Of a DNA stretch of 64,000 nt, positions 11,779-62,570 are shown one piece after another. Each line of letters starts with the position of its first letter. The first letter of the stretch is position 1. The DNA is from Xestospongia bergquistia (lineage: Eukaryota > Porifera > Demospongiae > Haplosclerida > Petrosiidae), in the NCBI GenBank assembly GCA_963965975.1, contig OZ014416.1, positions 1,426,001-1,490,000 of the forward strand, written 5' to 3'. A program made the translations under genes and the position numbers. The notes beneath the pieces were generated by a model. The model searched no databases, had not been told where the DNA came from, and saw only the letters and a program-made list of their open reading frames with translations.

Positions 11779-12838
11779 TCAATGTTTGCAGTAGGGGTAC
11801 TGTGCCCCTTGCTTGTTTTGTTCTTGAGCCCATTTGTAGACACAGACAAAAAAACAAAAAACAAAATAGACAACACTGAATGGTAAGATAGTCAATATTA
11901 AAGTAAGTCTTACAATGTTATCTTTAAAAATGGCAGTAGAAATAAAGCTACAATCAAAAGAGTCACCGTTATCGACAAATATGTACATTACTGTGACAAG
12001 GAATGTTAAGGCTATGACAATAAGTAGTCCTGTATATGGGGGACAATATTTTTCACAATCACATTTTTTCTTGTTAGAAGAAAAAATCTTGAAAGGCAAG
12101 TAGATTACCAATGCAATTATAATAAAAACATAAGCTAGCCAGAAGATAATCATGATGTAAATTGAACATGGAGACTTCAAGACAATATTTAAACTTGTCA
12201 TTGCAGAGTACCAAGCATCTATGTCAACAAGTAGTCCAAGTGTCTTGATTAGTATAGTATAAAAGGAATGTTTCTCTTCTTTTTTATCTTCATCTCTAAA
12301 TCCTTTGGAGATATCTTTAACTCTCTTTTCAATCAAAGGAATAAAGCAAAATCCAATAATTCCAAAAATAAGCAGATATATTGATACCATTGTTATAAAA
12401 CTGGAGTAATTTTGAACATATTTCAGATATGTGTCTGTGAAGTTCTTCAAATTATCTCCAATGAAATATGCCATGGTAGAGAGTATCATTATAATACCAA
12501 AACAGAGTATTTTCTTGAACTTAAAGGAGCTTTGTTTACATTCATCACCACATAGTTTGCTTAGCAATATAACAATGGAAACTAGAAGTAAAACAATTCC
12601 AAATATTCCAAAATGTATCACTGTAACTACAACTTTAGTTTTGGAAGATGCCTCAGAAACTGCTATGGCATAGAATACAACAGAATGGAGAATATCTATA
12701 AATAATGCCGCTACTTTCAATTCATTGAAAAGTTTACTATTTGCTATTAAAAGTCTCTGTGAAAATAAAGAAAGAGAAATTGTATACATACATACTCTAT
12801 AATATTTTATACTTGCTACTTACATTCTTGCCACCCAT
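11779..12838 (-). CDS. TMA1: eight-segment membrane protein, group A
   Basis: Unrecognised family. Exon 1 (12824-12838) encodes only MGGKN before GTAAGT. Exon 2 (11779-12756) encodes the rest; total 330 aa. Hydrophobic segments fall near residues 20-40, 48-72, 87-105, 125-148, 172-192, 208-232, 247-268 and 283-310. Family motifs: FNELKVAALFIDIL at the start of TM1, YFIGDNLKNF after TM3, VSIYLLIFGIIGFCFIPLIEKR in TM4, VDIDAWYSAMTSL in TM5, IFVDNGDSFDCSF after TM7, and CVYKWAQEQ after TM8. The two halves look like a 4+4 repeat. Charged loops (KDISKGFRDEDKKEEKHS) lie between TM4 and TM5. It follows DLGAP5 on the opposite strand, tail to tail. A channel, transporter or receptor role is conceivable; nothing in the sequence decides it. 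The frame is intact. Confidence 0.85.
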
Positions 12839-13481
12839 TTTCAGTTTGTATACTTCTGTAGTCACAGCTGGCCCTTGCAATAATATGATAGTAACTGTTT
12901 TATATAATATCATAGTGACCACACCTACATCTTCAGTCAACCAAATTATGGTAAATGGATGTATAATAAACTGTACAGTAACTTGGTAATGTAACTAATG
13001 TTAAATCCAAAATATATCAAATCTTCATTCATTATGTCTCTAAGGAGACTACAGTATGAGTAAAATAAGCAGAAATAGAAACACTTTTGTAGGTACCAGT
13101 GTGGTTTGTGTGCATATTAATATATTTAAGGTATTATTAATATACTTTTCTGTTTAATATAATAACATTGATTAAGATGACACTTTGATTTGTAAGTGCT
13201 ATGAAGTGACAATAATAATAATATATTAATTTTACTTACATGAGCATGTGCATTTCTCCTAATGGTCCTGTACTCCAATCAGGTAAACAAATACAAACTT
13301 ACAAAGCATCTATGGTAAGTCTAAAGAATGTAGTTGCGTTAAAATGAATTGTAGTTTACCAATGAGGAGAACAATACAGTATAATTAACATGAATTCTAG
13401 ATTCCATAGTAATCTACCTATGTTTGTTACAAATTTATTGAAGTAATGCGAATAATACTTTTAAAAATGATATTAAATATA

Positions 13482-14099: not shown

Positions 14100-14620
14100 G
14101 CAGTCCTAGAGTTGGTTGGACACCTCTCTCTATACATAGAGAAGTGCCAAGTTGGAGAGACAGTCTTGAGTCATTGTTGACCTGATGAGATACGTCTTCA
14201 CCTACGAAACGAAGAAAAGGACCGCTCAGCTGTAGCACTAGTTACACCAATGGTCATAGAAATCTGGACACACTTTATTAATGTCGGAAAGCACTCTTTA
14301 GCTGTCATAAGTTCGGAGTAGATATCGTGTATATATAAACTTGAAGTTTTTTGATCTCTGAAGGATTTGGCTGTCAAGGCTTCTACTCTGATTTCGTTTT
14401 CAGGTATATCGTAATGTTCTAAGAAGGGTAGCAATGTATCCACATCTAAAAGCTTTTCAGAATCAGGCTGCAGTGCCTCCATTGCAGTCATCAATGATAA
14501 ATTAACTTCTGTAAACTTCCGATTCAGTTCCTCTACTACTATATCTAGAGTACTGTAGTAGATGTGGATATGATACTCGTCTATGATCTGTATGATGTTT
14601 CTCTACCAGTCGTTTCATAT
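14100..14620 (-). pseudogene. hAT transposase C-terminal relic
   Basis: The minus-strand frame encodes VVEELNRKF, then LLPFLEHYDI, then ISMTIGVTSATAERSFSSFRR. The SATAERSFS core is the hallmark of the hAT C-terminal dimerisation domain (ZMYM/ZBED-type transposases). The expected following motif, VKTYLIRSTM with NLALL, is present but needs a one-base frame change near 14,194. The upstream catalytic part is missing. It is a dead fragment of a hAT DNA transposon. Confidence 0.85.
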
Positions 14621-16770: not shown

Positions 16771-17821
16771 TTAATAAGGCTGTTTGCAGTAGGGGTACTG
16801 TGCCCCTTGCTTGTTTTGCTCTTGAGCCCATTTGTAGACACAGACAAAAAAACAAAAAACAAAATAGACAACACTGAATGGTAAGATAGTCAATATTAAA
16901 GTAAGTCTTACAATGTTATCTAAATAAAGCTACAATCAAAAGAGTCACTGTTATCGACAAATATGTACATTACTGTGACAAGGAATGTTAAAGCTATGAC
17001 AATAAGTAGTCCTGTATACGAGGGACAATATTTTTCATGATCACATTTCTTCTTGTTAAAAGAAAAAATCTTGAAAGGCAAGTAGATTACCAATGCAATT
17101 ATAATAAAAACATAAGCTAGCCAGAAAGTAATCATGATGTAAATTGAACACGGAGACTTCAAGACAATATTTAAACTTGTCATTGCAGAGTACCAAGCAT
17201 CTACGTCAACAAGTAGTCCAAGTGCCTTGATTAGTATTGTATATAAGGAATGTTTCTCTTCTTTTTCATCTTCATCTCTAAATCCTTTGGAGATATCTTT
17301 AACTCTCTTTTCAATCAAAGGAATAAAGCAAAATCCAATAATTCCAAAAATAAGCAGATATATTGATACCATTGTTACAAAACTGGAGTAATTTTGAACA
17401 TATTTCAGATAGGCATCTGTGAAGTTCTTCAAATTATCTCCAATGAAATATGCTGTGGTAGAGAGTATCATTATAATACCAAAACAGAGTGTTTTCTTGA
17501 ACTTAAAGGAGCTTTGTTTACATTCATCATCACATAGTTTACTTAGCAATATAACAAAGGAAACTAGAAGTAAAACAATTCCAAATAATCCAAAAATTAT
17601 CACTGTAACTACAATTTTAGTTTTAGAAGTTCCTTTAGAGACTGTTATGGCATAGAATACAACAAAATGGAGAATATCTATAAATAATGCTGCTACTTTC
17701 AATTCATTGAAAAGTTTACTATTTGCTATTAAAAGTTTCTATGAAAATAAAGAAAGAAGAAATTGTATACATGCATACTTTATAATATTTCATACTTGCT
17801 ACTTACATTCTTGCCACCCAT
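16771..17821 (-). pseudogene. TMA2: group A membrane gene, truncated by a 16 bp deletion
   Basis: Micro-exon 17807-17821 (MGGKN) and exon 2 from 17738. The frame is open to 16,920 and would give 277 aa ending DSFDCSFI. At 16,920, 16 bp present in TMA1 and TMA3 (their TTTTTAAAGATAAC neighbourhood) are missing, which creates a stop. The sequence for the last membrane segment and tail (NIVRLTLILT... to YCK) remains downstream, out of frame, to 16,771. The product would keep about seven of eight segments. Motifs YFIGDNLKNF and VDVDAWYSAMTSL are intact, so the break is recent. Confidence 0.82.
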
Positions 17822-20171: not shown

Positions 20172-21214
20172 TCAGTAGGGGTACTGTGCCCCTCGCTTGT
20201 TTTGTTCTTGAGCCCATTTGTAGACACAGACAAAAAAACAAAAAACAAAATAGACAACACTGAATGGTAAGATAGTCAATATTAAAGTAAGTCTTACAAT
20301 GTTATCTTTAAAAATGGCAGTAGAAATAAAGCTACAATCAAAAGAGTCAGTGTTATCGACAAATATGTACATTACTGTGACAAGGAATGTTAAGGCTATG
20401 ACAATGAGTAGTCCTGTATATGGGGGACAATATTTTTCACGATCACATTTCTTCTTGTTAAAAGAAAAAATCTTGAAAGGCAAGTAGATTAGCAATGCAA
20501 TTATAATAAAAACATAAGCTAGCCAGAAGATAATCATGATGTAAATTGAACACGGAGACTTCAAGACAATATTTAAACTTGTCATTGCAGAGTACCAAGC
20601 ATCTATGTCAACAAGTAGTCCAAGTGTCTTGATTAGTATTGTATATAAGGAATGTTTCTCTTCTTTTTCATCGTCATCTCTAAATCCTTTGGAGATATCT
20701 TTAACTTTCTTTTCGATCAAAGGAATAAAGCAAAATCCAATAATTCCAAAAATAAGCAGATATATTGATACCATTGTTATAAAACTGGAGTAATTTTGAA
20801 CATATTTCAGATAGGCATCTGTGAAGTTCTTCAAATTATCTCCAATGAAATATGCTGTGGTAGAGAGTATCATTATAATACCAAAACAGAATGTTTTCTT
20901 GAACTTAAAGGAGCTTTGTTTACATTCATCATCACATAGTTTGCTTAGCAATATAACAATGGAAACTAGAAGTAAAACAATTCCAAATATTCCAAAAAGT
21001 ATCACTGTAACTACAACTTTAGTTTTAGAAGATGCCTCAGAAACTGCTATGGCATAGAATACAACAAAATGGAGAATATCTATAAATAATGCTGCTACTT
21101 TCAATTCATTGAAAAGTTTACTATTTGCTATTAAAGGTCTCTGTGAAAGAAGAAATTATATACATACATACTCTATAATATTTCATACTCGCTACTTACA
21201 TTCTTGCCACCCAT
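20172..21214 (-). CDS. TMA3: eight-segment membrane protein, group A
   Basis: Exon 1 at 21200-21214 (MGGKN), exon 2 at 20172-21140; 327 aa, frame intact. Very close to TMA1: same eight hydrophobic segments and same YFIGDNLKNF, FCFIPLIEKKVKDI, DIDAWYSAMTSL and IFVDNTDSFDC motifs. A small deletion removes the last three residues of the tail, so it ends GAQYPY before TGA. The linker between TM4 and TM5 is the acidic FRDDDEKEEKHS. Function not recognised. Confidence 0.85.
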
Positions 21215-24727: not shown

Positions 24728-25745
24728 GAGCCCATTTGTAGACACAGACAAAAAACAAAATTAAAAAACAAAATAGACAACACTGAATGGTAAGATAGTC
24801 AATATATTAAAGTAAGTCTTACAATGTTATCTTTAAAAATGGCAGTAGAAATAAAGCTTCAATCAAAATAGTCACTGTTATCGACAAATATGTACATTAC
24901 TGTGACAATGAACGTTAAGGCTATGACAATGAGTAGTCCTGTATATGGGGGACAATATTTTTCATGATCATATTTCTTCTTGTTAGAAGAAAAAATCTTG
25001 AAAGGCAAGTAGATTACCAATGCAATTATAATAAACACATAAGCTAGCCAGAAAATAATCATGATGTAAATTGAACATGGAGACTTCAAGACAATATTTA
25101 AACTTGTCATTGCAGAGTACCAAGCATCTATGTCAACAAGTAGTCCAAGTGTCTTGATTAGTATTGTATATAAGGAATGTTTCTCTTCTTTTTCATCTTC
25201 ATCTCTATATCCTTTGGAGATATCTTTAACTCTCTTTTCAATCAAAGGAATAAAGCAAAATCCAATAATTCCAAAAATAAGCAGATATATTGATACCATT
25301 GTTATAAAACTGGAGTAATTTTGAACATATTTCAGAAAGGCGTATGTGAAGTTCTTCAAATTATCTCCAATGAAATATGCTGTGGTAGAGAGTATCATTA
25401 TAATACCAAAACAGAGTGTTTTCTTGAACTTAAAGGAGCTTTGTCTACATTCATCACCACATAGTTTGCTTAGCAATATAACAATGGAAGCTAGAAGTAA
25501 AACAATTCCCAATATTCCAAAAAGTATCACTGTGACTACAACTTTAGTTTTAGAAGATGCCTCAGAGACTGTTATGGCATAGAATACAACAGAATGGAGA
25601 ATATCTATAAATAATGCTGCTACTTTCAATTCATTGAAAAGTTTACTATTTGCTATAGGTCTCTGTGAAAATAAAGAAAGAAGAAATTATATACATACAT
25701 ACTCTATAATATTTCATACTCGCTACTTACATTCTTGCCACCCAT
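24728..25745 (-). pseudogene. TMA4: group A membrane gene with premature stop
   Basis: Micro-exon 25731-25745 (MGGKN) and exon 2 from 25662; open to 24,859, giving 272 aa. The break is a single base change: the Cys codon TGT of the DxFDCSF motif after TM7 is TGA (24,859-24,861). Downstream sequence for TM8 is still recognisable to about 24,728. A 3 bp loss turns RLLIANS into RPIANS. It could make a seven-segment product or be dead. Confidence 0.8.
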
Positions 25746-26980: not shown

Positions 26981-28814
26981 TTAAATGTACAGAAGTTTCT
27001 CTTGACACCATGGCCAGACCCAGGCAAGACAAATAAAAACAAAATATATAATACTTAATATTAAGACAAACAATGTTAAACTAAGTTGTACAATGTCTTT
27101 ACCTCTACTACATTTGGAAGTAGATGTTCCACAATTGAATGTACAATCAAAAGGCTCACTGTTATTAACAAGTACACCTAGTGCTATAATAATAAATGTT
27201 AAAGCCATGATAATGGTTAGTGCTGTATATTCGCAACAATATATCTCACAATCAAATTTCTCTTTCTTAAAAGAAACAACCTTCAAAGGCAAGTAGATTA
27301 GCAATGCAATTATAATAAAAGCATAAGCTAGCCAGAGAGCAACCTTGATGTAAGTTGAACATGAACTCTTCAAGACATTACCTTTACTTAAGCTTGTCAT
27401 AGCAGTATACCAAGCATCTACTTCAGCAATTAGCCCAAATGCCTCAATTAATGTAGTATAATAGGGATGTTTGTCTTCTTCTTCATCACTATATGCTTTG
27501 GAGATATCTTTAACTCTCTTTTCAATTAGAGGAATAAAACGAAATCCAAGAATTCCAACAATAAGTAGATATATCGATGCCACTGTTACACGTATACCAC
27601 AATTAGAGTTAGTTGGGTCACATTTCAGATAGGGGTACATTGTAATCGAGTTCTCCAAATTATCTCCAAGAAAATATGCCATGGTAGAGAGTATCATTAT
27701 AATACCAAAACAGAATGTTTGAAAGGAGCTTTGTTTACATTCATTGACACACAGTTTTCTTAGCAATATAACAGAAGAAGCTAGAAGCAAAACAAGTCCT
27801 AATATTCCAAAAAATATCACTGTAACTAAAGCTTTAGTTTTGGAAGATGCCTCAGAGACTGCAGTGGAATAGAATACAAGAGAGTTGAGAACATCACACA
27901 ACAGTGCTGCTGCCTTTAATTCATTGAAAAGTTTACTATTTACTTTTAAAAGTCTCTATGAAAATAAAGAAAGAAGAAATTATATATATGTATGCTATTA
28001 GTCTTGGTACCAGACATTTCATTAGGGGAGATTGCATGCGCTACGTCGAGTCATAGTGGCCTGGAATGCCATTCGCGTTTTACGGGATTTCTGGTTTAAT
28101 TTGCAACTTTCATAGATAGTTAGCGCTCTAGTTTTTGACAACGTTGGTGGACTTGCAAGGCCTTTCAAATGGTGTAAACCATTTCTCTCTATCTCGTTCC
28201 TAGCAGGAGTTAACTTATAACACAGAGTTAGTGGTCTTTGTCATACATCGCAATATGGTAATGTGATCATGAACAGAGATTCAAAGCAGTTTCTCCAGAT
28301 CTAGACGTTTCCTCCTCTTACGAAACATCTGGTACCTAGGTCTGGCATTGCCGACCCTTCGCTATGAGAGGAAGGGCTTGGAAACAAGCGCATACAAGAC
28401 TCGCATAGCTGAAATTAAATGAGATGGGGGTATAGCATTCTTAGACCTGAGTACATGCTAAGAGAATGAAAAACGGAAAACGTCTCTTATGATATTCACT
28501 TGTTGTGAATGGTGATGATCGTTCAAATAGACGCACAGACCGTCTTTTACTAACTAGTGCTGCCTCGTGTGACATACTGCTTTAAAGCAGAATTTAGAGC
28601 AGCTTCAAAGGCATTCATCGACTCACATTGAATAGGTGTTAAGTGAAAAGGAGGACGAGGCGTTTCTGTGGCCTGTTGAGTCTTATATGCACTTATCCCC
28701 AGACCCTTCCTCTCTTAGTGAAGGGTTGGCAACGCCAAACTTCTGGTACTGAGACTACTACCCTCTATAATATTTTATACTCTATAATTAGATACTTACA
28801 TCTTTGCCACCCAT
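26981..28814 (-). CDS. TMA5: eight-segment membrane protein, group B
   Basis: Micro-exon 28800-28814 (MGGKD), then an 844 bp intron carrying a TIR element, then exon 2 at 26981-27955; 329 aa, intact frame. Group B features: FNELKAAALLCDVLNSLVFYSTAV in TM1, YFLGDNLENS after TM3, an extracellular-type loop YPYLKCDPTNSNCGI, EVDAWYTAMTSL, NNSEPFDCTFNCGTSTSKC after TM7, and a short tail ending WCQEKLLYI. The paired cysteines in the loops suggest disulfides on the outside. Relative to TMA7 it lacks four residues (the CAK stretch) before TM3. Function unknown. Confidence 0.83.
27999..28757. mobile_element. TIR element in intron 1 of TMA5 (copy A)
   Basis: Ends are inverted: TAGTCTTGGTACCAGA at the left, TCTGGTACTGAGACTA at the right. 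759 bp, GC-richer than its surroundings, no convincing frame. Related copies sit at the same spot in introns of TMA7, TMA10 and TMA14. Target duplication not resolved. Confidence 0.75.
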
Positions 28815-31380: not shown

Positions 31381-32447
31381 TCAATGTTTGCAGTAGGGGT
31401 ACTGTGCCCCTCGCTTGTTTTGCTCTTGAGGCCATTTGTAGACACAGATAAAAAAACAAAAAACAAAATAGACAATACTGAATGGTAAGATAGTCAATAT
31501 TAAAGTAAGTCTTACAATGTTATCCTTAAAAATGGCAGTAGAAATAAAACTACAATCAAAAAAGTCACCGTTATCATCAAATATGTACATTACTGTGACA
31601 ATGAATGTCAAGGCTATGACAATGAGTAGTCCTGTATATGGGGGACAATATTTTTCATGATCACATTTCTTCTTGTTAAAAGAAAAAATCTTGAAAGGCA
31701 AGTAGATTACCAATACAATTATAATAAAAACATAAGCTAGCCAGAAAGTAATCATGATGTAAATTGAACACAGAGACTTCAAGACAATATTTAAACTTGT
31801 CATTGCAGAGTACCAAGCATCTACGTCAACAAGTAGTCCAAGTGTCTTGATTGGTATTGTATAAAAGGAATGTTTCTCTTCTTTTTCATCTTCATCTCTA
31901 TATCCTTTGGAGATATCTTTAACTCTCTTTTCAATCAAAGGAATAAAGCAAAATCCAATAATTCCAAAAATAAGCAGATATATTGATACCATTGTTATAA
32001 AACTGGAGTAATTTTGAACATATTTCAGATAGGCATCTGTGATAATCAAGTTCTTCAAATTATCTCCAATGAAATATGCTGTGGTAGAGAGTATCATTAT
32101 AATACCAAAACAGAGTGTTTTTTTGAACTTAAAGGAGCTTTGTTTACATTCATCACCACATAGTTTGCTTAGCAATATAACAATGGAAACTAGAAGTAAA
32201 ACAATTCCCAATATTCCAAAAAGTATCACTGTAACTACAACTTTAGTTTTGGAAGATGCTTCAGAGACTGCTATGGCATAGAATACAACAAAATGGAGAA
32301 TATCTATAAATAATGCTGCTACTTTCAATTCATTGAAAAGTTTACTATCTGCTATTAAAAGTCTCTATGAAAATAAAGAAAGAAGAAATTGTATACACGC
32401 ATACTTTATAATATTTCATACTTGCTACTTACATTCTTGCCACCCAT
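31381..32447 (-). CDS. TMA6: eight-segment membrane protein, group A
   Basis: Exon 1 at 32433-32447 (MGGKN), exon 2 at 31381-32364; 332 aa, intact to GAQYPYCKH. Near-identical to TMA1 apart from two extra residues after TM3 (NLIITDAYLKYVQ against NFTDTYLKYVQ) and IFDDNGDFFDC in place of IFVDNGDSFDC. Same eight hydrophobic stretches and acidic TM4-TM5 linker. The 3' flank with DLGAP5 scrap and the 5' flank both match TMA1, so this is a duplicate of the DLGAP5-TMA1 unit. Function unknown. Confidence 0.85.
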
Positions 32448-38722: not shown

Positions 38723-41700
38723 ATGGAGTTTGATGACTCTCTATTTGAGGAATTTTCTTCAGAGAAAGATAGAAAGAAACTAGTACAACATCACCAGTAT
38801 ACTCCAAAGATATGTGATCCTGAGGTTAGTAATGATAGTGTATAAACTGTACATAAACAAATCTTATATATTCTAGTGGTTTATGGAGTTATTAACTGTT
38901 AGTGATGAGGACTATATGATTGATAAATTCAAAGCTGATCTACTCTACTATAAAGGACAATATGAACTTGCTTTGAAAATATACAAAAATGTAATCAGTA
39001 TTCTTCCGCATACTCATGGACAGGTAAATCAACTTTTCACCATCAATCATAGCGTTACCAGAATACCATACTTTAATGCAAAATTAATACATTAAGGTTC
39101 TAATGTCTATTATTAGGGTCTAAGGTATAGTATTAATTTCCCATTAAAGAATAGCGTCTGTTACTGGTCTTAAAAGTAAAATTAATAGTCTATTATACCC
39201 TTCTAATTACCCATTTTGAGGAGAAAGGGTCTGGTGACACTTAATAGGATATGTATGCAGATGCAGAATATAGAAAGTCCCAATCAGATCAGAGATCATC
39301 ATTATGCCCCGCCCTCTATGTGATGTAGTCTAAAAATGGAGTTTGAAAAATTAAGAAGTAGATTAGTGTTTTTGTATCTAAGAAAATAATATCCACTTGA
39401 TCATGAAGACAAGACAGATGGAAACTATAATTGTGTTAAAATGCATGTTCTCAGAGTGTGTGGTTTGCTTGTTGATACTATTAGACCAAATTCCTTCTTA
39501 TTATTTGCAAAAGTATAGTTCATTAGATTGTTGTTTCTCTGTAATATCTACATAACAACTAATAATGAAAATTAATTGAAATTTTAATAATTTCTTGGTT
39601 TAGAGTAATATTAACCTGAACTAACTAAATTAAAACATATCACTTAGTTTGTTCTTCTTTACTTGTACTAGTTTAAATATTTACTGTCTTCTTCCCTGAT
39701 ATCTTGTCCAGTGTTAGCTAATATTTCATTTGCTTGTAATCTGTGCTTGTTAACTGCTCGAATTTTCCGTCTCTTCCTATATGAAACAATCAAACTAATA
39801 ACAAATATTCCAATATAAAAGAACAGAGATCCACATACAAAACTAAGTTGTATTATATTGATAGGATTTATGGTTTGAGAACTGGACTCTTTATAACAAT
39901 CTAAAGGTTCTTTATTATCTCCAATTATATACAGTCCTGATGTAACCCATATAGTAAACATTAGTGCTATATAGCTGTGATGATCTTCTGAAGTACATTT
40001 CTTGTTGCAACATTGTCTTACAGTGCATTTCTTGTTATCAATATTAATGATTGTGAGAGCAAAGTAAATCCCCAATATGATCATAATGGAATAACAGCAA
40101 GCCAGTAACCTGTTAAGATATAGTTTGAACATGTTGATTTCAAGACATTATTTTTAGTTAGTCTTGTCAGTGCAGTATACCAAGCATCTAGTTCTGTGAT
40201 TATTGCAAGTGACTCTATTGCTTTTGTATAAAATTGTTGTTGTTTATTATCAGTGTTGTTATTGTTATTGTTTTGGTATAGTTTCAAAATGCGTCTTGCT
40301 TTCTTTTCAACTAACGGAATAAAACGAAATCCAATAATTCCAAATATCAACAAATATAATGATGTCACTGTTATATGTATACCACAGGTCATAACTTCAG
40401 TTGAGTTGTAGTCACTTGGATCACATTTTAAATCTTTATATTTAGTAACAAAGTTTATTAAATTATCTCCTACAAAATACATTGTAGTAGACAGTATCAT
40501 CAGTGAACCAAACAACACTTGTAACATTAGTTCACAACATGCACCACCATTAGTAGATTGTTTTCTATGTTTGTATATCGATCTACACTTGTAGATCAGC
40601 ATGACGAGGGATGCTCCTATTAATACTAACCCTAACACTCCAAATGATATCCCAGAGACAGCTACAGCATAGAAGAAAAGAGAATTTAGAGCATCAGCTA
40701 TGAATGCTATAGTCTTTAATTCATTGAAGAAAAATTTAGGAGTTGCTTTCAAAAGTGTCTATAATAATGAACTTAACAATAATATTGATATACTACATCT
40801 GTTATTAATGTGTTTATTAAAAACTACTACTTCATTTACTTACACTCATTTTTTCCTAATAGTAAAGTAGTGAAGTGGTACAAGAGAATAGCACACGTTG
40901 TAGGAGATATTTTTTGTTATGGAAGATTCATCTATAAAAGCTTAATTCCCATAATGTCAATAAAACTAAAATGAAAATGACAATGATGATGAGTATCTAC
41001 TCTCCAAATACTTAATACCTTTGATAAGGTATTGTAAGTACCAGTAGTCTATCATAAACTATACCAGTAGTAGGTATGAGTATAGATCTGCAATAAAGTG
41101 GAGTTGATAAACTTGGACTAGTTATCAATACATTTGATAAGTCACTCTATTGTTTTTATGAAACTAATCTGTCTTTAGTTACATAGTAAACAAATGCAGT
41201 CTATGATATTATCAGATTATTTCATCAATTTTTTGCCAGGTCAAGAGAGAAGTACAGGACAGTATAGTACGATGTTTACTACAGTGTAATGGTAAAGAGG
41301 AGACAGTTCAATGGGCGTGGTCTCTAATACAACCTCCACATGAGAGGGATGCATCGTCATGGCAACTACTAGGAAATTGTTATAGCCATACAGGAAATGT
41401 ATTTGGTAAGTCAAATGTTATTGTGTGTTTGTTAGAAGTCTATCTGGTCTATTTATCCATTCATCTACGATTAGTCATGCTACCATCAATTAAATCATCC
41501 ATTATCAACTTGTCTATTAATTCCTTCATATTAGAGGAGACAATAGCAAGACAACAATGTGCTTTACTACAACGTCATTATCCTCTCTATTGGAAAGAAT
41601 TATCACATACTTATCAAAAATTAAAAGATGCATGGACAAGAACTGAGGATCAGGAGATCAATAAATTTAAGATTCTCCAAAATACAGTGACATTATTTAA

Positions 41701-42654: not shown

Positions 42655-43320
42655 AACATGATTATCTTCTTTTCAACTGGTTTACGACATATTGGACACT
42701 CAGTGAGTTTATCAACACATGGTTGACATGTTCCATGACCACAAAGAAAGACACAATTTTTATGACGATCTATACATACTACACAGAGGGACTGAGACGA
42801 TATATGGTCTTGTCAACTTGTAATGGGTGGGGATTACTAATTATCTTCCTTTGAGATCTTGGAGTTGTTGTTGCAGAACTGTTTTATAGTATAATATGAT
42901 CATAATGAGAATAACAACAAGCCAGTAATCTGTTAAGATATAGTTTGAACATGTTGATTTCAAGACATTATTTTTGGTTTGTCTTGTCAGTGCAGTGTAC
43001 CAAGCATCTAGTTCTGTGATTCAAAAAGATTTCAGTCGCTATTTTTGCACTTACTTCTATTCCTCACACATTTGTAGATCAACAGAAAAATAGAAGTTAC
43101 CATTAACAGGAGTCTACCATATGCAATTATAGCAAGCCAGTAACCTGTTAAGATATAGTTTGAACATGTTGATTTCAAGACATTATTTTTAGTTAGTCTT
43201 GTCAGTGCAGTGTACCAGTCATCTAGTTATGTGATTATTGCAAGTGACTCTATTGCTTTTGTATAAAATTGTTGTTGTTTATTATCAGTGTTGTTATTAT
43301 ATTTTATGAAATGATATGGT
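42655..43320 (-). pseudogene. Patchwork of Mind bomb RING exon and TMA fragments (unit 1)
   Basis: 42,655-42,880 is a copy of the last Mind bomb exon (C-terminal RING, ending [10 protein letters not shown]) plus part of the exon before it (LQQQLQ). From 42,880 it continues directly into TMA exon 2 pieces: group C TM5-TM6 (VLKSTCSNYILTGYW), a bit of group D (KCVRNRSKC-like), then group C again. Several breakpoints in 400 bp and no open frame. Confidence 0.78.
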
Positions 43321-43515
43321 ATATCTATTAATTCCAATAACTTTAATTATATAATAGATTTGACTATTTTAAACAGATGTAAAACAATTAATTATATTAT
43401 GGGTGGAAAAATAGCAGCAAATTAAATAATGATCAATACACTTTGTTACTATTTTTTTGTATTTATTGGCCTGAGCTGCTTTTGTATTTATACAGATTAC
43501 ATGAATCCTTCTTCT

Positions 43516-44784
43516 TTAGTCTTCATCACTACTGTTTTCATTAGGAGTTAAGAGTTTTTCTTCTTCACTGATTTGTACTAGCTCTTTTTGTGATTTCCTT
43601 AGTATTAAGCTATCCCAACTTCTGTGACGCTGCAAATTGTTTGGTTTATTATGATTCAGACAGGATGGCAAACTTGTTTGACGTCTAAGTTTTCTTTGAT
43701 TCTGATCATAGTTTTGAAAACTCAATGTGCTTTCATCATGATTCTGAATATCTTGATTACCTTCATCCTCATTTTGAAAACTTGATGTACTTTCATTCTG
43801 ATCTTCACTTTTCCTTTTCCAGTATAAAGCAATTAAATTAACAATGAGGATTACAATATAGACAGTTAGAGAAACACACACAAAACTAAGGTGTACTCTG
43901 TTCATGTTATTTTGAGAATTGTAACAATCTAAAGGTTGTTTATTGTCTCCAAGTATGTAGAATGCTGAAATGATCCATACAAACAAAATGCTTACACACA
44001 TTGCTACATATATACAACAGTCTTCTTTTTTGTCTTCTTTCTTGAAATAATTTATGGCACATGTGAGGGCTAAGTAAGCCCCTAACCCTATCATAACAAG
44101 AACAAAAGCAATCCAAAAAGAAGTCGTCACATCTTTTGAACATGTAAACTTGAAGGCATTGTATTTGGCTACAGTTATAATAGCAGTGTACCAAGCATCT
44201 AGCTCAGTAATCATTGCAAATGACTCAATTATTGTTGTGTAAAAGTGATTTTTGTCTTCTTCATTATTGTTAGTAGCGTTGCTTTGGGGCATCAAGTTTA
44301 AAAGAATAGTTGCTTTCTTTTCAAGCAAAGGAATGAAGCGAAATCCAATAGCTCCAAAAATGAGCATATATATAGCAGACATTGTTGCCCTTTTTCCACA
44401 AGTTTTAGCTTCAGTAGAATTGGTGTGAGTTGGATGACAATTCAGATCTTTGTACTCAGTAACAAAAGTTACTAAATTGTCTCCTACATAATACGATGAA
44501 GTAGATAGTGTCATCATAACACCAAAAAAGATTTGTAAGAAAACTCCGAAACATGCCAGACTCTTAGTGCACTTACTTCTATTCCTCACACATTTGTAGA
44601 TCAACAGAACAATAGAAGTTACCATTAACAGTAGCCCTAATCCTCCATATAGAATGGATGCAGTTATAGCGATAAATTTCTTTGAGGATGTTCCAGAAAT
44701 TGCTATGGCATAGAAAACGATAGAGTTCAGAGCATCAAATATAAAGGCAATGACCTTCAGTTCGTTTAAGACATATATAGGTTC
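43516..44784 (-). CDS. TMA9: eight-segment membrane protein with long tail, group D
   Basis: Single recognised exon of 422 codons, after the acceptor TTATAG at 44,785-44,790. The micro-exon with the start could not be found, because the upstream sequence switches at about 44,815 to a group A 3' flank. The start is therefore unknown and the gene may lack its 5' end. Motifs: VLNELKVIAFIFDALNS, YYVGDNLVTF, CHPTHTNSTEAKTCG, GFRFIPLLEKKA, TELDAWYTAIITVAK, YILGDNKQPLDCYN. After TM8 comes a tail of about 100 residues, rich in Q/N/E/S, with imperfect SFQNEDEGNQ-type repeats, and the basic phosphosite-like RRQTSLPSC. Function unknown. Confidence 0.72.
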   Translation of the reverse strand, partial: EPIYVLNELKVIAFIFDALNSIVFYAIAISGTSSKKFIAITASILYGGLGLLLMVTSIVLLIYKCVRNRSKCTKSLACFGVFLQIFFGVMMTLSTSSYYVGDNLVTFVTEYKDLNCHPTHTNSTEAKTCGKRATMSAIYMLIFGAIGFRFIPLLEKKATILLNLMPQSNATNNNEEDKNHFYTTIIESFAMITELDAWYTAIITVAKYNAFKFTCSKDVTTSFWIAFVLVMIGLGAYLALTCAINYFKKEDKKEDCCIYVAMCVSILFVWIISAFYILGDNKQPLDCYNSQNNMNRVHLSFVCVSLTVYIVILIVNLIALYWKRKSEDQNESTSSFQNEDEGNQDIQNHDESTLSFQNYDQNQRKLRRQTSLPSCLNHNKPNNLQRHRSWDSLILRKSQKELVQISEEEKLLTPNENSSDED

Positions 44785-45206: not shown

Positions 45207-47015
45207 CTAGTCCTGGTTGTTCTGCTGTCTTTGCTCTTTGTTCCATTTGCAGACCCAGGCAATTGCAAGACAAAAAACCAGAATATATATTATACTACTT
45301 AATACTAAGACAATCACTGTTAAAGTAAGTTGTACAATGTCTTTATCTCTACTACATTTGGAAGTAGAGTTTCCACATTTGAAGGTACAATCAAAAGGCT
45401 CACTGTTATCAGCAAGTACATGTAGTGCTACAATAACGAATGTTAAAGCCATGACAATGGTTAGTCTTGTATATTGGCAACAATATTTACAATCACATTT
45501 CTTTTTGTTAAAAGAAACAACCTTCAAAGGCAAGTAGATTAGCAATGCAATCATAATAAAAACATAAGCTAGCCAGAAAGCAATCTTGACTAATGTAGAA
45601 CATGGATTCTTCAAGACATTATCTTCACTTAAGCTTGTCATAGCAGTATACCAAGCATCTACTTCAGCAATTAGCCCAAGTGCCTCAATTAATGTAGTAT
45701 AAAAGGGATGTTTGTCTTCTTTTTTTTCTTCTTCATCACTATATGCTTTGGAGATATCTTTAACTCTCTTTTCAATTAGAGGAATAAAGCGAAATCCAAG
45801 AATTCCAAAAATAAGTAGACATATAGATGCCCCTGTTGTACGTATACCACATTTAGAGTTAGTTGGATCACATTTCAGATAGGGGTACATCGTAATCAAG
45901 TTGTCCAAATTATCTCCAAGAAAATATGCCATGGTAGAGAGTATCATTATAATACCAAAACAGAGTGTTTTCGCACACTTACAATTAAATTTAAAGGAGC
46001 ATTGTTTGCGCATGCATTCAATGGCATATAGTTTTCTTAGCAATATAAGAAAAGAAGCTATAAGCAAACCAAGTCCTAATATTCCAAAAAATATCACTGT
46101 AACTAAAGCTTTAGTTTTGGAAGATGCCTTAGAGACTGCAGTGGAATAGAATACAAGAGAGTTGAAAATATCACACAATAGTGCTGCTGCCTTTAATTCA
46201 TTGAAAAGTTTACTATTTATTTTTAAAAGTCTCTACAAAATAAAGAAATAAGAAATTATGTACATGCATGTATGCTATTAGTCTTGGTACCAGACATTTC
46301 AGGGATTGGAGAACGCTTGCGCGACGTCAGGTCATGGTGGGATGCCATTCGCGTTATACGGGATTTCTACTTTTCCTAAATTATTAGCGCTCCAGTTTTG
46401 GTGGACTTGCAAGGCCTTTCAAATGGCATAAACTATTTCTCTCTATCTCCTTCCTAGCAAGATCAGAGTTAACTTATAACACAGAGTTAGTGGTCTTTGT
46501 CAACGTAACAGAGTATTATAGCAAACTGGCGTTCCCGACCCTTCGCTATGAGAGGAAGGGCTTGGAAACAAGTGTATACAAGACTCACACAGCTGAAATG
46601 AGATGTGGGTATAGCATTCTTAGACCTGAGTACATGCTAAGAAAATGAAAAACGCAAAACGACTGTTGTAATATTCACTTGTTGTGCATGGTATATGATA
46701 GTTCAAATAGAAGCATAGACCGTCTTTTACTAACTAGTGCTGCCTCGTGTGACATACTGCTTTAGTTTTTAAGCAGCTTCATGATCAAAGGACTATAGGT
46801 GTTAAGTAGAAATGGATGTCAGCCTTCGGCTTCCGTAAAAGGAGAACGAGGCGTTGCCGTGGCCTGCAATATTTTACAGGCTGTATATGCGCTTATCCCC
46901 AGACCCTTCCTCTCTTAGCGAAGAGTTGGCAACGCCAGACTATCTGGTACCGAGACTACTACCCTCTATAATATTTCATACACTATAATTGGATACTTAC
47001 ATTTTTGCCACCCAT
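45207..47015 (-). CDS. TMA10: eight-segment membrane protein, group B
   Basis: Micro-exon 47001-47015 (MGGKN), exon 2 at 45207-46232; 346 aa, intact. Group B with an expanded TM2-TM3 loop of cysteines and basics (ECMRKQCSFKFNCKCAK). Other motifs: YFLGDNLDNL, YPYLKCDPTNSKCGI, EVDAWYTAMTSLSEDN, LADNSEPFDCTFKCGNS, and a tail WNKEQRQQNNQD. Its intron 1 carries the 680 bp TIR element. Function unknown. Confidence 0.84.
46279..46958. mobile_element. TIR element in intron 1 of TMA10 (copy C)
   Basis: TAGTCTTGGTACCAGA and TCTGGTACCGAGACTA at the ends; 680 bp, same internal landmarks as copies A and D (for example GACCCTTCGCTATGAGAG). Confidence 0.78.
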
Positions 47016-48256: not shown

Positions 48257-51200
48257 ATGGAGTTTGATGACTCTCTATTTGAGGAATTTTTTTCAGAGAA
48301 AGATAGAAAGAAACTAGTACAACATCGCCAGTATACTCCAAAGATATGTGATCCTGAGGTTAGCAATGATAGTGTGTACACTGTACATAAACAAATCTTA
48401 TATATTCTAGTGGTTTATGAAGTTATTAACTGTTAGTGATGAGGACTATATGATTGATAAATTCAAAGCTGATCTACTCTACTATAAAGGACAATATGAA
48501 CTTGCCTTGAAAATATACAAAAATGTAGTCAGTATTCTTCCGCATACTCATGGACAGGTAAATCAACTTTTCATCATCGATCATATTGATTTTATTTAGG
48601 TAGCGTTACCAGAATACCATACTTTAATGCAAAATTAATACATTAAGGTTCTAATGCCTATTATTAGGGTGTAAGTTATAGTATTAATTTCCCATTAAAG
48701 AATAGCGTCTGTTACTGGTCTTAAATGTAAAATTAATAGTCTATTATACCCTTCCCATTACCCATTTTGAGGAGAAAGGGTCTGGTGACACTTAATAGGA
48801 TATGTATGCAGAATATAGAAAGTCCCAATCAGATTAGAGATCATCATAATGCCCCGCCCTCTATGTGATGTAGTCTAAAAATGGAGTTTGAAAAATTAAG
48901 AAGTAGATTTGTGTTTTTGTATCTAATATCTACTTGATCATGAAGACAAGACAGATGGAAACTATAATTGTGTTAAAATCCATGTTCTCAGTGTGTGTGG
49001 TTTGCTTGTTGATACTATTAGACCAAATTCCTTCTTATTATTTGCAAAAGTATAGTTCATTAGATTGTTGTTTCTCTGTAATATCTACATAACAACTAAT
49101 AATGAAAATTAATTGAAATTTTAATAATTTGTTAAGTTTAGAGTAATAATATTAACCTGAACTAACTAAATTAGAACATATTACTTAGTTTGTTCTTCTT
49201 TACTTGTACTAGTTTAAATATTTACTGTCTTCTTCCCTGATATCTTGTCCAGTGTTAGCTAATATTTCATTTGCTTGTAATCTGTGCTTGTTAACTGCTC
49301 GAATTTTCCGTCTCTTCCAATATGAAACAATCAAACTAATAACAAATATTCCAATATAAAAGAACAGAGATCCACATACAAAACTAAGTTGTATTATATT
49401 GATAGGATTTATGGTTTGAGAACTGGACTCTTTATAACAATCTAAAGGTTCTTTATTATCTCCAAGTATATACAGTCCTGATGTAACCCATATAGTAAAC
49501 ATTAGTACTATATAGCTGTGATGATCTTCTGAAGTACATTTCTTGTTGCAACATTGTCTTACAGTGCATTTCTTGTTATCAATATTAATGATTGTGAGAG
49601 CAAAGTAAATCCCCAATATGATCATAATGAGAATAACAGCAAGCCAGTAACCTGTTAAGATATAGTTTGAACATGTTGATTTCAAGACATTGTTTTTAGT
49701 TAGTCTTGTCAGTGCAGTGTACCACGCATCTAGTTCTGTGATTATTGCAAGTGACTCTATTGCTTTTGTATAAAATTGTTGTTGTTTATTATCAGTGTTG
49801 TTATTGTTATTGTTTTGGTATAGTTTCAAAATGCGTCTTGCTTTCTTTTCAACTAACGGAATAAAACGAAATCCAATAATTCCAAATATCAACAAATATA
49901 TTGATGTCACTGTTACACGTATACCACAGGTCATAACTTCAGTTGAGTTGTAGTCACTTGGATCACATTTTAAATCTTTATATTTAGTAACAAAGTTTAT
50001 TAAATTATCTCCTACAAAATACATTGTAGTAGACAGTATCATCAATGAACCAAACAACACTTGTAACATTAGTTCACAACATACACCACCATTGGTAGAT
50101 TGTTTTCTATGTTTGTATATCGATCTACACTTGTAGATCAGCATGATGAGGGATGCTCCTATTAATACTAACCCTAACACTCCAAATGATATCCCAGAGA
50201 CAGCTACAGCATAGAAGAAAAGAGAATTTAGAGCATCAGCTATGAATGCTATAGTCTTTAATTCATTGAAGAAAAATTTAGGAGTTGCTTTCAAAAGTGT
50301 CTATAATAATGAACTTAACAATAATATTACATCTGTTATTAATATGTTTATTAAAAACTACTTCATTTACTTACGCTCATTTTTTCCTAATAGTAAAGTA
50401 GTGAGGTGGTACAAGAGAATAGCACACGTTGTACGAGATATCTTTTGTTATGAAAGATTCATCTGTAAAAGTTTAATTCCCATAATGTCAATAAAACTAA
50501 AATGAAAATGACAATGATGATGAGTATCTACTCTCCAAATACTTAATACCTTTGATAAGGTATTGTAAGTACCAGTAGTCTATCATAAACTATACTAGTA
50601 GTAGGTATGAGTATAGATCTGCAATAAAGTGGAGTTGATAAACTTGGACTAGTTATCAATACATTTGATAAGTCACTCTATTGTTTTTATGAAACTAGTC
50701 TGTCTTTAGTTATATAGTAAACAAATGCAGTCTATGATATTATCAGATTATTTCATCAATTTTTTTGCCAGGTCAAGAGAGAAGTACAGGACAGTATAGT
50801 ACGATGTTTACTACAGTGTAATGGTAAAGAGGAGACAGTTCAATGGGCATGGTCTCTAATACAACCTCCACATGAGAGGGATGCATCGTCATGGCAACTA
50901 CTAGGAAATTGTTATAGCCACACAGGAAATGTATTTGGTAAGACAAATATTGTGTGTTTGTTAGAAGTCTATCTGGTCTATTTATCCATTCATCTATGAT
51001 TAGTCATGCTACCATCAATTAAATCATCCATTATCAACTTGTCTGTTAATTCCTTCATACTAGAGGAGACAATAGCAAGACAACAATGTGCTTTACTACA
51101 ACGTCATTATCCTCTCTATTGGAAAGAATTATCGCATACTTATCAAAAATTAAAAGATGCATGGACAAGAACTGAGGATCAGGAGATCAATAAATTTAAG

Positions 51201-52837: not shown

Positions 52838-54179
52838 TTATTCTTTATCCTCATCACTGCTGTTTTCATCACTTAATAATGGTTTGTTTTCTCCAATTTG
52901 TACTAGTTCATTACTCTTCCCATCCCAACTTGTCTGACGTTGAAAAATGTTTGTTTGATTCTGGCAAGATGGCAAACTTTTTTGACGTTTTAAAATTGGT
53001 TGACTTTGATTCTGATTATTGTTCGATGTACTTTCATTCCCATTTTGAAAGCGTGATGTACTTTTATCCTGACTTTGAATAGTTTGATTATTGCCATTCT
53101 GATTTTGTAAACTTCCATTTTGATCTTTCCTTTTCCAGCAGTATAAAGCAGCTAAAGTAACAATATATGATGTTAGAGAAACACACACAAAACTAAGGTG
53201 TACTATGTTCATAGTATTTTGAGTAGCGTAGCAATCTAAAGGTTGCTTATTGTCTCCAAGTATGTAGAATGCTGAAATGATCCATAAACAAAAAAAGCTT
53301 GCACATATTATTGCTACATACATGTAATAGTCTCTTTTCTTGCAAAAAGTTATGGTGCATGTGAGGGCTAAGTAAGCCCCTAACCCTATCATAACAAGAC
53401 CAAAAGCAATCCAAAAAGAAGTCGTCACATCTTTTGAACATGTAAACTTGAAGGCATTATATTTGGCTACAGTTATAATAGCAGTGTACCAAGCATCTAG
53501 TTCAGTAATCATTGCAAATGACTCAATTATTGTTGTGTAAAAGTGATTTTTGTCTTCTTCATTTTTGTTAGTAGCGTTGCTTTGGGGCATCAAGTTTAAA
53601 AGAATAGTTGCTTTCTTTTCAAGCAAAGGAATGAAGCGGAATCCAATAACTCCAAAAATGAGCATATATATAGCAGATATTGTTGCCTTTTTTCCACAAG
53701 TTTTAGCTTCAGTAGAATTGGTGTGAGTTGGATGACAATTCAGATCTTTGTACTCGGTAACAAAACTTACTAAATTGTCTCCTATATAATATGATGAAGT
53801 AGATAGTGTCATCATAACACCAAAAAAGATTTGTAAGAAAACTCCGGGGCATGCCAGGCAAATATTAGTGCACACATTTCTATTCCTCACGCATTTGTAG
53901 ATCAACAGAAAAATAGAAGTTACCATTAACAGTAGCCCTAATCCTCCATATAGAGTGGATGCAATTATAGCTATAGATTTCTTTGAGGATGTTCCGGAAA
54001 GTGCTATGGCATAGAAAACAATAGAGTTCAGAGCATCAGCTATAAAGGCAATGACCTTCAGTTCATTTAAGACATCTTTAAGGGGCTAATGTTTGAGGTT
54101 TCTATAAATGAGAATGGTATAAATAAAAAAGACTATTCATACAAAAACGCTATAATATTATCAATTAAACAGTTACCAT
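52838..54179 (-). CDS. TMA12: eight-segment membrane protein with long tail, group D
   Basis: Exon 2 at 52838-54085 is fully open. The best start is an ATG-only exon at 54177-54179 followed by GTAACT, joined to the acceptor CATTAG before CCCCTTAAAG; this would give 416 aa beginning MPLKDVLNELKVIAF. That start is tentative: using the acceptor position of TMA9 instead gives an in-frame TAG. Motifs match TMA9: YYIGDNLVSF, HPTHTNSTEAKTCG, TELDAWYTAIITVAK, YILGDNKQPLDCYA. The tail has repeated Q/N/S-rich units and KRQKSLPSC. Function unknown. Confidence 0.76.
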
Positions 54180-56992: not shown

Positions 56993-58333
56993 TTAATGAA
57001 TTTTCTTCACTTCCGATCCTTGGAAAGCTTCAGAGTTTCCACTGTTTTCAATGATTGTTTGGCAATGTACATCAGCCAAAACAATTTGTTTTTCCGTAGT
57101 ATCTAGTATTTCATTCTCGCCGTCATCATTAGAGGTAGTCTCTTCACCAATTTCATCACTTTCTCGAAAAAGTTCAGAATTTGCACTGCTTTCCATACTT
57201 GTTTGTCTTTTTATGTATGTGTGTGGCCAATGTACATCAGCCAAAAAACTTGCTATCTGTTGATAGTATAAAGCCACAAAGTTAACTATGAATGGTCCTA
57301 AGAAAGCTTTAAAATAGAAAAGTAAAGAACCACAAACAAAAGTGAGGTGTATTATGTTGGTAGGAATTGACTCTTCAAAACAATCTAAAGGATGCTTATT
57401 ATCACCAAGTATATACAGTCCTGAAGTAATCCATAAAGTAATATATATGAATGTTATTGCTGTACAGTGGCGATGTTTTTGTTCACTGCTATCACTAGTA
57501 CATTGTTTACACCTGAAATCAATTACTGTGAGAAGTAAATAAATCCCCAATGCAATCATGCCAAGAACAAAAGCAGCGCATGAGCCATATAGGACGTACT
57601 TTGAGCATGCAGAACTAAAAACTTTATCTTTAGCTACAGTTATAATAGCAGTGTACCAAGCATCTAGTTCAGTAGTCATTGCAAATGACTCAATTGCTGT
57701 TTTATAAAAATTTGTTTTATCATCAATATCACTGCTGTCAGTTCCATTGTTAAGCCTTCTTTTCAAAATGTGTGTAGCTTTCTCTTCTAGTAAAGGAATA
57801 AAACGGAAGCCAATGATTCCAAAAATTAGTAGATGTATGGATGACACTGTTGCTTTTTTACCACAAGTCTCAGCAGTATCTGTTGAGTTTGGATCACAAT
57901 TCAGATCTTTATATTCAGTGAGAAGGTATACTAAATTGTCTCCAAGGAAATATGATGAGGTAGACATTATCATCAATAAACCGAAAATTGTTTGTAGGAT
58001 AATTCCATAGCATACGTATTTGGATTTAGATCTGAAACTCTTTATAGTGTTCCATGAACATTTGAAATGCAGAAAAATACAAGAGGTTATCAACAATACA
58101 AAGCCTAACACCCCAAACAAGGAAGCTGCAATTTTACCTTTTGAGGACACTCCATTAATTGCTATCACATAGAAAACAACCGAGTTGAGAGCATCAAATG
58201 TGAATGCAATGATCTTCAATTCATTTAAAACATATACTTTTGGATATTCCTATATATGAAGATAAAAAATAAAGAGTATACAATATTATAAACTACTTTC
58301 CATATATTAATCATTTACCATATTTTCCCCCAT
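56993..58333 (-). CDS. TMA13: eight-segment membrane protein with long tail, group D
   Basis: Micro-exon 58319-58333 (MGENM), exon 2 at 56993-58249; 423 aa, intact. The most diverged member. Motifs: VLNELKIIAFTFDALNSVVFYVIAI, YFLGDNLVYL, CDPNSTDTAETCG, GFRFIPLLEEKA, TELDAWYTAIITVAKDK, YILGDNKHPLDCFE. The tail of about 100 residues is acidic, has KRQTSMESSANSE followed by two similar blocks (LADVHW / LADVHC, SSANSELFRES / ENSGNSEAFQGS), and ends VKKIH. No duplication debris on its 5' side. It may be close to the ancestral single gene. Function unknown. Confidence 0.84.
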
Positions 58334-60716: not shown

Positions 60717-62570
60717 CTAGGTAGTAGGGACAGAGAGGCCCTGTTGCATTTCCATTGGATCTGGTCCTGGTATGTTCTGCTGTTTTTGCTCTTTGTTCCA
60801 CTTGCAGACCCGGGCAATTGCAAGAAGAATATATATTATAATACTTAATACTAAGACAATCACCGTTAAACTAAGTTGTACAATGTATTTAACTCTACTA
60901 CATTTGGAAGTAGATGTTCCACAATTGAAGGTACAATTGAAAGGCTCACTGTTATCAGCAAGTACATACAGCACTATAATAATGAATGTTAAAGCCATGA
61001 CAATGATTAGTCCTGTATATTGGCAATGGCACTGATATTCCTTAAAGTCACATTTCTTTATGCTAAAAGAAATAACCTTCAGAGACAAGTAGATTAGCAA
61101 TGCAATTATAATAAAAGAATAAGCTAGCCAGAAAGCAACCTTGATGTAAGTTGAACATGAACTCTTCAAGACATTATCTTTACTTAAGCTTGTCATAGCT
61201 GTATACCAAGCATCTACTTCAGCAATTAGCCCAAGTGCCTCAATTAATGTAGTATAAAAGGGATGTTTGCCTTCTTTTTTTTCATCTTCATCACTATATG
61301 CTTTGGAGATATCTTTAACTCTTTTTTCAATTAGAGGAATAAAACGAAATCCAAGAATTCCAAAAATAAGTAGATATATTGATGCCACTGTTGTACGTAT
61401 ACCACATTTAGAGTTAGTTGGGTCACATTTCAGATAGGGATACATCGTAATCAAGTTCTCCAAATTATCTCCAAGAAAATATGCCATGGTAGAGAGTATC
61501 ATTATAATACCAAAACAGAGTGTTTTCGCATGCTTACAATTAAATTTAAAGGAGCATTGTTTGTGCATGCATTCAATGGCATATAGTTTTATTAGCAATA
61601 TACTAAAAGAAGCTATAAGCAAACCAAGCCCTAATATTCCAAAAAATATCACTGTAACTAAAGCTTTAGTTTTGGAAGATGCCTCAGAGACTACAGTGGA
61701 ATAGAATACAAGAGAGTTGAGAATATCACACAACAGTGCTGCTGCCTTTAATTCATTGAAAAGTTTACTATTTACTTTTAAAAGTCTCTATGAAATAAAG
61801 AAAGAAGAAATTATATATATGTATGCTATTAGTCTTGGTACCAGACATTTCATTAGGGGAGATTGGAGAACGCTTGCGCGACGTCAGGTCATGGAATGCC
61901 ATTCTCGTTATACGGGTTTGCGACTTTCCAAAATATAGTTAGCGCTCTAGTTTTTGATAACATTTGTGGACTTGCAAGGCCTTTCAAATGGTGTAAACCA
62001 TTTCTCTCTATCTCGTTCCTAGCAAGATCAGAGTTAAGTTATAACACAGAGTTAGTGGTCTTTGTCAACGTAACAGAGTATTATATCAGTTTCTCCAGAC
62101 GTTTCCTCCCCTTAAGAAACGTTAGTTTTCGACCCTTCGCTACGAGAAGAAGGGCTTGGAAACAAGGACTCGCACAGCTGAAATGGGATGTGGGTAGAGC
62201 AATCTTAGACCTGAGTATGTGCTAAGAAAATGAAAAACGCAAAACGGCTGTTTGTGATATTCACTTGTTGTGCATGGTATGATCGTTCAAATAGAAGCAC
62301 AGACCGTCTTTTACTAACTGGTGCTGCCTCGTGTGACATACTGCTTTAGAGCAGAATTTTTAAGCAGCTTCAAAGGATTCATTGACTTACGTTGAATAGT
62401 TGTTAAGTAAAAGGACGTTTCCGTGGCCTGCAATATTTTATATGCGCTTATCTTCAGACCCTTCCTCTCTTAGCGAAGGGTCGGCAACGCCAGACTATCT
62501 GGTACCGAGACTACTACCCTCTATAATATTTCATACTCTATAATTAGATACTTACATTTTTGCCACCCAT
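60717..62570 (-). CDS. TMA14: eight-segment membrane protein, group B
   Basis: Micro-exon 62556-62570 (MGGKN), exon 2 at 60717-61787; 361 aa, intact. Closest to TMA10, with the same cysteine-rich insert (ECMHKQCSFKFNCKHAK) between TM2 and TM3. Motifs: YFLGDNLENL, YPYLKCDPTNSKCGI, EVDAWYTAMTSLSKDN, LADNSEPFNCTFNCG. The tail is longer than in TMA10 (QQNIPGPDPMEMQQGLSVPTT). Intron 1 carries the TIR element. Function unknown. Confidence 0.85.
61830..62513. mobile_element. TIR element in intron 1 of TMA14 (copy D)
   Basis: TAGTCTTGGTACCAGA and TCTGGTACCGAGACTA at the ends; 684 bp. Open plus frames inside (for example 61,863-62,225) resemble no protein and are not kept in the other copies. Confidence 0.78.

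Follow-up and report, generated by a model that had tools for sequence, protein, structure and literature searches.

The stretch analysed here (the window: 64,000 nucleotides of the sponge Xestospongia bergquistia, contig OZ014416.1, positions 1,426,001 to 1,490,000) carries between positions 11779 and 62570 an array of fourteen minus-strand members of a membrane protein family. It would belong, as one branch, to a lineage-restricted and apparently undescribed superfamily whose eight-helix proteins would have both ends in the cytoplasm and would have arisen by duplication of a four-helix unit. Judged by its sequence features, such a tandemly duplicating 4+4 family may be of the channel or transporter type, a reading that we favour tentatively. 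An earlier note, made from the letters of the window, had proposed fourteen recognisable one-strand members, eleven of them with unbroken long exons, plus scraps. This was confirmed by stop-to-stop open reading frames (ORFs) and, independently, by a six-frame search of the sponge's own genome (146 Mb in 21 contigs, with the window array on contig C6) using one member. The eleven intact ORFs, at 324 to 422 codons, are far beyond chance, as 20 first-order Markov resamples of the whole 64-kb window gave no ORF longer than 137 codons. New relative to the earlier note are the internal repeat of the protein, sister loci on other contigs and the duplicated segments on which the array lies.

The two halves of the protein match each other in hhalign at 94.8% (p 4.9e-8) across transmembrane helices (TM) 2 to 4 and 6 to 8. 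A wider alignment, which also includes the end of TM1 and TM5, gave 90.2% (p 1.5e-6), as compared to 0.9% and 1.2% for the reversed-half controls. The repeat register aligns TM2-TM3-GDN-Cys-TM4 to TM6-TM7-DN-Cys-TM8. TM1-4 and TM5-8 have the same orientation, so that we read the protein as two parallel copies of a four-helix unit fused in one chain (a pseudo-dimer). Each half resembles the four-helix layout of tetraspanins (PF00335), in which outer loop 1-2 is short and the larger outer loop 3-4 bears cysteines, and that of claudin/PMP22 proteins (PF13903). However, the corresponding matches are at chance level (consensus E 0.29 for tetraspanin, short of the cut-off, and E 0.35 for claudin/PMP22), the CCG motif is absent from loop 3-4 in 32 of 32 sequences, and two units are fused in each chain.

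Eight helices with both ends cytoplasmic are predicted in agreement by the charge bias of the loops, the paired cysteines and the structure model. In the 32 sequences, loops 2-3, 4-5, 6-7 and the tail contain on average 4.3, 5.4, 3.4 and 5.5 lysines plus arginines per sequence, as compared to 1.4, 2.2, 1.2 and 1.25 for loops 1-2, 3-4, 5-6 and 7-8. The four outer loops average 13 to 27 residues. One cysteine in loop 5-6 and the first cysteine of loop 7-8 were found in all 32 sequences, and two cysteines in loop 3-4 as well as two further ones in loop 7-8 are mostly gained or lost pairwise. The counts for loops 3-4, 5-6 and 7-8 are 0+1+1 in the window members m11, m20 and m31, 2+1+1 in m43, m49, m52 and m56, and 2+1+3 in m26, m45 and m60 as well as in the genes on contig C1 and all but one of those on contig C5. 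Extra loop 3-4 cysteines are present in m35 and in the gene on contig C13, and C5_6305415 has a single one in this loop. This pattern fits disulphides in the outside compartment. The eight-segment membrane protein of the earlier note was borne out by the second of two AlphaFold2 models (23 sequences; predicted TM-score (pTM) 0.67, mean predicted local distance difference test (pLDDT) 68), which shows the coding part as eight long helices, plus a helix derived from intron sequence; the first model was poorer (pTM 0.47, mean pLDDT 60). When nine window members were scanned with a plain hydropathy cut, each showed 7 or 8 helices, and the count fell to 6 for one full-length C5 gene, an undercount caused by the weakly hydrophobic TM5.

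The motifs FNELK, GDN, FIPLxEK and DAWY(S/T)A of the earlier note are present in the member alignment, in which 56 columns are invariant across the eleven intact members, including N-E-L-K, G-D-N-L, F-I-P-L and D-A-W-Y. The best conserved intramembrane site is D-A-W-(Y/F)-(S/T)-A in TM5. Its tryptophan is invariant across alignments of 24 and 20 rows that cover four chromosomes, and TM5 ranks with the slowest regions in both clades (site rates 0.57 and 0.59), with the tail being the fastest. The ends of TM3 and TM7 usually form a (G/A)DN-like turn that is followed by a cysteine-bearing outer loop. Superfamily members thus described share a micro-exon start, one large exon, DAW(Y/F), the DN of TM7 and one cysteine each in loops 5-6 and 7-8. 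The DAW site itself is absent from the C13 gene and reads DTW in C1 and DGW in one type of C5 gene; m26 and some of the C5 and C1 genes vary at the DN close to the end of TM7.

In 12 of the 14 members the predicted start ATG lies on a micro-exon of 2 to 5 codons, followed by an in-phase intron and a single large exon. For the nine genes of clade B, a 21-base pattern of micro-exon and donor, permitting A or G at two positions, had nine matches in the window with zero mismatches, one upstream of each gene, and none in 100 shuffles. The encoded peptides are MGGKN or MGGKD in clade B, MS in m49 and m40, and MGENM in m56; the search gave no convincing candidate for m43 and m52. First introns measure 59 to 85 nucleotides (nt) in eight window genes, very short introns being usual in some sponges. 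Those of the four B2 genes are longer (325 nt in m35, 768 nt and 844 nt) and have much of their sequence in common. A similar arrangement was seen in 9 of the 12 C5 ORFs tested and in the single C1 ORF tested, with introns of 47 to 67 nt; these counts have no chance control, and for two of the nine C5 ORFs the short-intron candidate came third by donor score. The micro-exon of the C13 gene is doubtful. With so small a first exon, no extracellular N-terminal domain is seen in the predicted proteins, only a few residues preceding TM1 in genes with a located start. The MGGK start raised the idea of N-myristoylation, which was discarded: in place of the Ser/Thr usual for it, position 6 is occupied by Arg, or by Lys in the 16920 member.

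Genome searches with five proteins placed the window array in a wider superfamily. A second array on C5 comprises 20 main places (6302628-6342915), some with stops and four on the other strand, plus fragments, and further loci were found on C1 (three, with scraps) and C13 (one). Members on C6 are 23 to 34% identical to those on the other contigs. In a tree of 42 rows, each of the two arrays (window and C5) and the trio of C1 genes forms a supported clade. The C13 gene is attached next to the C6 clade by a long branch, a placement that the tree program flagged as unsure. The tree divides the window array into clade A (m43, m49, m52 and m56) and clade B (nine genes); m40 was left out of it and assigned to clade A by its 98% identity to m49. 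Sequences from other public sources (label ena or lgn), P0001 and P0003-P0013, belong to the same superfamily; P0002 comes from the window itself. P0001 pairs with m49, to which it is 88% identical, P0003 with m56 and P0008 with a C5 gene, and P0004-P0007, which are of the B2 type, branch outside the group of four B2 genes in the window. We infer from these pairings that the main clades predate the split from the outside sources, and that B2 was afterwards multiplied or homogenised separately. A 90-residue stretch at C7:6599494-6599763, 38% identical to the C13 member (E 4.6e-12) over TM2 and a long cytoplasmic loop and containing one stop, may be a relic or a low-complexity match.

The earlier note could not tie the family to a name, and the searches agree with it. 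No named relative was found among Pfam, NCBIfam and PDB sequences, the structure models had no convincing match among PDB folds, and scans of viral and prokaryotic contigs yielded no relative. An annotated animal relative missed by the libraries searched could exist. No paper describing such a family was found by title or start of abstract, and most subscription journals lie outside the scope of that search, so that this is not proof that the family is unpublished.

The likeness to a channel or transporter stems from the layout, namely the parallel 4+4 bundle, the nearly always kept TM5 aspartate beside a fixed tryptophan, the turns of TM3 and TM7 and the small disulphide-locked loops. The protein would be located in the plasma membrane, where the path for an ion or small solute may run along the pseudo-twofold axis between the two halves, with the TM5 aspartate within this permeation path. 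The mouth of the path would be formed by the disulphide-locked outer loops, one disulphide possibly linking loops 5-6 and 7-8. The variable cytoplasmic loops and tails may tune or couple the channel or transporter. Clade A tails (e.g., those of m43, m52 and m56) hold repeated sites of the R-x-x-S type, which suggest phosphorylation and might contribute to this tuning.

A number of results weigh against this reading. No channel or transporter family was matched by sequence, and none convincingly by fold. Parallel 4+4 repeats also occur in lipid scramblases, so the repeat is no proof of a solute path. The C13 gene does not have the TM5 aspartate, confidence in both structure models is moderate (mean pLDDT 60 and 68), and glycosylation sequons do not separate the two sides of the membrane (per sequence, 0.41 in loop 3-4 and 0.66 in loop 7-8 vs 0.44 in loop 4-5 and 0.75 in the tail). 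The ratio of nonsynonymous to synonymous substitution rates (dN/dS) is near 1 in several close pairs (1.01 for m26/m35 and 1.27 for m26/m45), which may mean that constraint is weak in some of the array. Finally, the outer loops of the C5 array evolve faster than its cytoplasmic parts, which makes outward diversification possible in the superfamily.

If the channel or transporter reading is true, an animal genome contains dozens of loci of a membrane family that is unnamed in the libraries searched. Sponges are not known to have neurons, and an expanded channel- or receptor-like family would be a direct candidate for their sensing or solute exchange. The 4+4 repeat and the D-A-W site are clear targets for structure work and mutagenesis. 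Lineage-restricted multi-pass families are nevertheless common, so the finding is of moderate interest.

The best-surviving alternative, itself rather unlikely, is a chemosensory or environmental receptor repertoire, in which each paralogue might sense a different external compound as a ligand-gated channel or atypical receptor. The analogy is with insect gustatory and odorant receptors, which have an inside N-terminus and seven TMs and form large tandem families with rapid turnover. In this comparison of how the proteins may work, tandem expansion, the predicted inside N-terminus and rapid turnover are shared features; however, the insect receptors have seven helices and are not known to contain a 4+4 repeat. 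Arrays of many members on two chromosomes speak for a repertoire, as do the rather high dN/dS values of close pairs (0.38-1.27 within subgroups of the window and 0.29-0.90 for the 16 C5 pairs listed). On the other hand, tandem arrays are equally usual for transporters and detoxification genes, and no receptor family could be linked to the superfamily by sequence or fold.

The regional rates bear on the same question and differ between the two arrays. For five disjoint window pairs, the ratio of nonsynonymous to synonymous differences per site (pN/pS) was 0.48 in outer loops, 0.68 in cytoplasmic parts and 0.53 in helices (outside vs inside, Fisher p = 0.012). The difference was 0.43 vs 0.56 (p = 0.15) without the most distant pair, m49/m56, and the column bootstrap of the outside/inside ratio spanned 1 (0.71, 0.46-1.10). 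Hence the outer loops are not the faster part of the window array, contrary to what a receptor repertoire would lead one to expect. For four disjoint C5 pairs, the values were 1.08, 0.55 and 0.48, respectively (p = 0.042), with a bootstrap ratio of 1.99 that barely excludes 1 (1.04-3.71), and the outer loops of the first half were at or above the neutral rate (1.31 for loop 1-2 and 1.60 for loop 3-4), in favour of such a repertoire. Both p values, 0.012 and 0.042, are uncorrected, and when the arrays were pooled no difference was seen (0.69 outside vs 0.66 inside, p = 0.57). Plain positive selection was rejected, as most pairs have dN/dS below 1 and the region test runs in opposite directions in the two arrays. 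An idea that would reconcile both arrays, which we consider improbable, is that this unrecorded animal superfamily of fused four-helix units serves an animal of an early-branching lineage as a repertoire of environment-gated channels, of which the C5 array diversifies outside and the window array is fixed outside and retuned cytoplasmically.

The earlier note had taken the differing loops, cysteine patterns and tails as a sign of selection for diversity, as in sensory, immune or self-recognition receptors. The local expansion of an eight-segment family is supported. Selection for diverse loops and cysteines, however, was not seen in the window array, where the weak difference between outer and cytoplasmic parts is opposite to the claim, and the cysteine differences, being mostly the loss or gain of whole pairs, do not support it either. 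Self-recognition or immune surface molecules are a very unlikely identity for these proteins. The copy number, the truncated copies, the paired gain and loss of cysteines and, in the C5 array only, the fast outer loops would suit them, but the short outer loops and a first exon of 2 to 5 residues, where found in the window, leave no extracellular domain to be seen, and in the window the outer loops are not the variable part.

Scramblases of the XK-related type (PF09815) have eight helices, a 4+4 repeat and both ends cytoplasmic, the same layout as predicted here, and we see a slim chance that the family belongs to them. PF09815 does not appear in the full Pfam lists of seven members nor, for 24 members, among the 25 families shown out of 50 (ordered by number of members, then by E-value, to E 0.11), and both fold matches lie within the stated noise range of the tool. 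The conserved motifs differ, and XK-related genes occupy two loci in this genome vs dozens of places for the superfamily. One of these genes (205 bits, C6:1417308-1418894, minus) lies about 7 kb from the window edge and on the same strand as the array. An XK-related identity was dropped after hhalign of the family with this neighbouring protein gave 0.3%, no better than the ELOVL (0.1%) and MFS (1.4%) controls.

It is similarly improbable that the protein is a G protein-coupled receptor (GPCR) of seven helices with an extra N-terminal helix. Without TM1, the polarity of the remaining helices is that of a GPCR, a sub-threshold 7tm_1 match (E 0.0031) was obtained for one of 24 members, and several GPCR chains are among the low-ranking fold matches. 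However, no 7tm_1 match was listed for the seven members with full lists or for two consensus sequences, none of the receptor-like fold matches stands out, and a repeat of halves is unexpected for a GPCR. Instead of seven helices and an outside N-terminus, eight helices and an inside N-terminus are predicted.

That these are largely relic genes of little function, maintained by recurrent segment duplication, is equally hard to credit: three of the fourteen members are broken, scraps accompany them, some close pairs have dN/dS near 1 and B1 vs B2 comparisons give 0.66-0.89, but the eleven exons have stayed open far beyond chance length, more distant clade A pairs have dN/dS of 0.37-0.42, the nine clade B micro-exons are near-identical, and the cysteines of loops 5-6 and 7-8 and the tryptophan of the DAW site are kept over four chromosomes. 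Comparisons of clade A with clade B gave 0.46-0.76.

The array is best explained by birth and death, in which copies arise through the tandem duplication of segments, become mixed and decay. Duplicated segments carry array copies, the largest being 4.4 kb at 97% (38701-43021 and 48235-52564). An ORF with the C-terminal dimerisation region of a hAT transposase (Dimer_Tnp_hAT, E 9e-5, just above the cut-off) lies inside the array at 14198-14602 on the minus strand, and mobile DNA of this kind may have helped the duplications. Within the duplicated segment, the plus-strand ORFs 41207-41878 and 51000-51407, which have no Pfam match, are repeated opposite the array.

All genes of the array are on the minus strand, and their positions are those of the window; unbroken main exons were identified by ORF, genome search and alignment, and broken members by ORF and genome search. 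Clade B1 comprises m11 (11779..12819), m20 (20172..21155) and m31 (31381..32364), all unbroken, together with the members at 16920..17738 and 24859..25686, both of which end before TM8. The m11 micro-exon (12824..12838) reads ATG GGT GGC AAG AAT (MGGKN) and is followed by GTAAGT, and the others, in the same order, are at 21200..21214, 32433..32447, 17807..17821 and 25731..25745, each encoding MGGKN. The four genes of clade B2 are unbroken: m26 (26981..27955; micro-exon MGGKD at 28800..28814, first intron 844 nt from the coordinates), m35 (35444..36427; MGGKD at 36753..36767, 325 nt), m45 (45207..46232; MGGKN at 47001..47015, 768 nt from the coordinates) and m60 (60717..61787; MGGKN at 62556..62570, likewise 768 nt). 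The end coordinate 62570 given previously for the array corresponds to the first base of the micro-exon of m60, the last gene. Directly downstream of m26, a 42-base unit is tandemly repeated in 3.8 copies with 97% matches (26550-26709).

In clade A, m43 (43516..44784), m52 (52838..54085) and m56 (56993..58249) are unbroken and have long tails; the micro-exon of m56 lies at 58319..58333, with an alternative start at its second ATG (M alone) that uses the same donor. The unbroken m49 (49209..50300) has its MS micro-exon at 50375..50380. The frame of m40 (39668..40758) is broken into the ORFs 39668-40147 and 40081-40758, with an MS micro-exon at 40844..40849. The genome search also revealed scraps of one further member at 42886-43020 and 43059-43382 (42886..43382 overall) and of another at 52231-52629.

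Two other tandem arrangements were observed. On C9, a dense array of cathepsin-like Peptidase_C1 exons extends over 1502757-1523415, with the catalytic cysteine in the three stretches read; silicatein was not shown, as the catalytic cysteine was present in 4/4 of those read among the 76 Peptidase_C1 matches in the genome. Within the window, a tandem pair of inositol monophosphatase-like genes is encoded on the minus strand at 4903-7437 (Pfam Inositol_P, E 2e-13 to 3.4e-15 for the three ORFs scanned), and both copies carry an N-terminal hydrophobic stretch.

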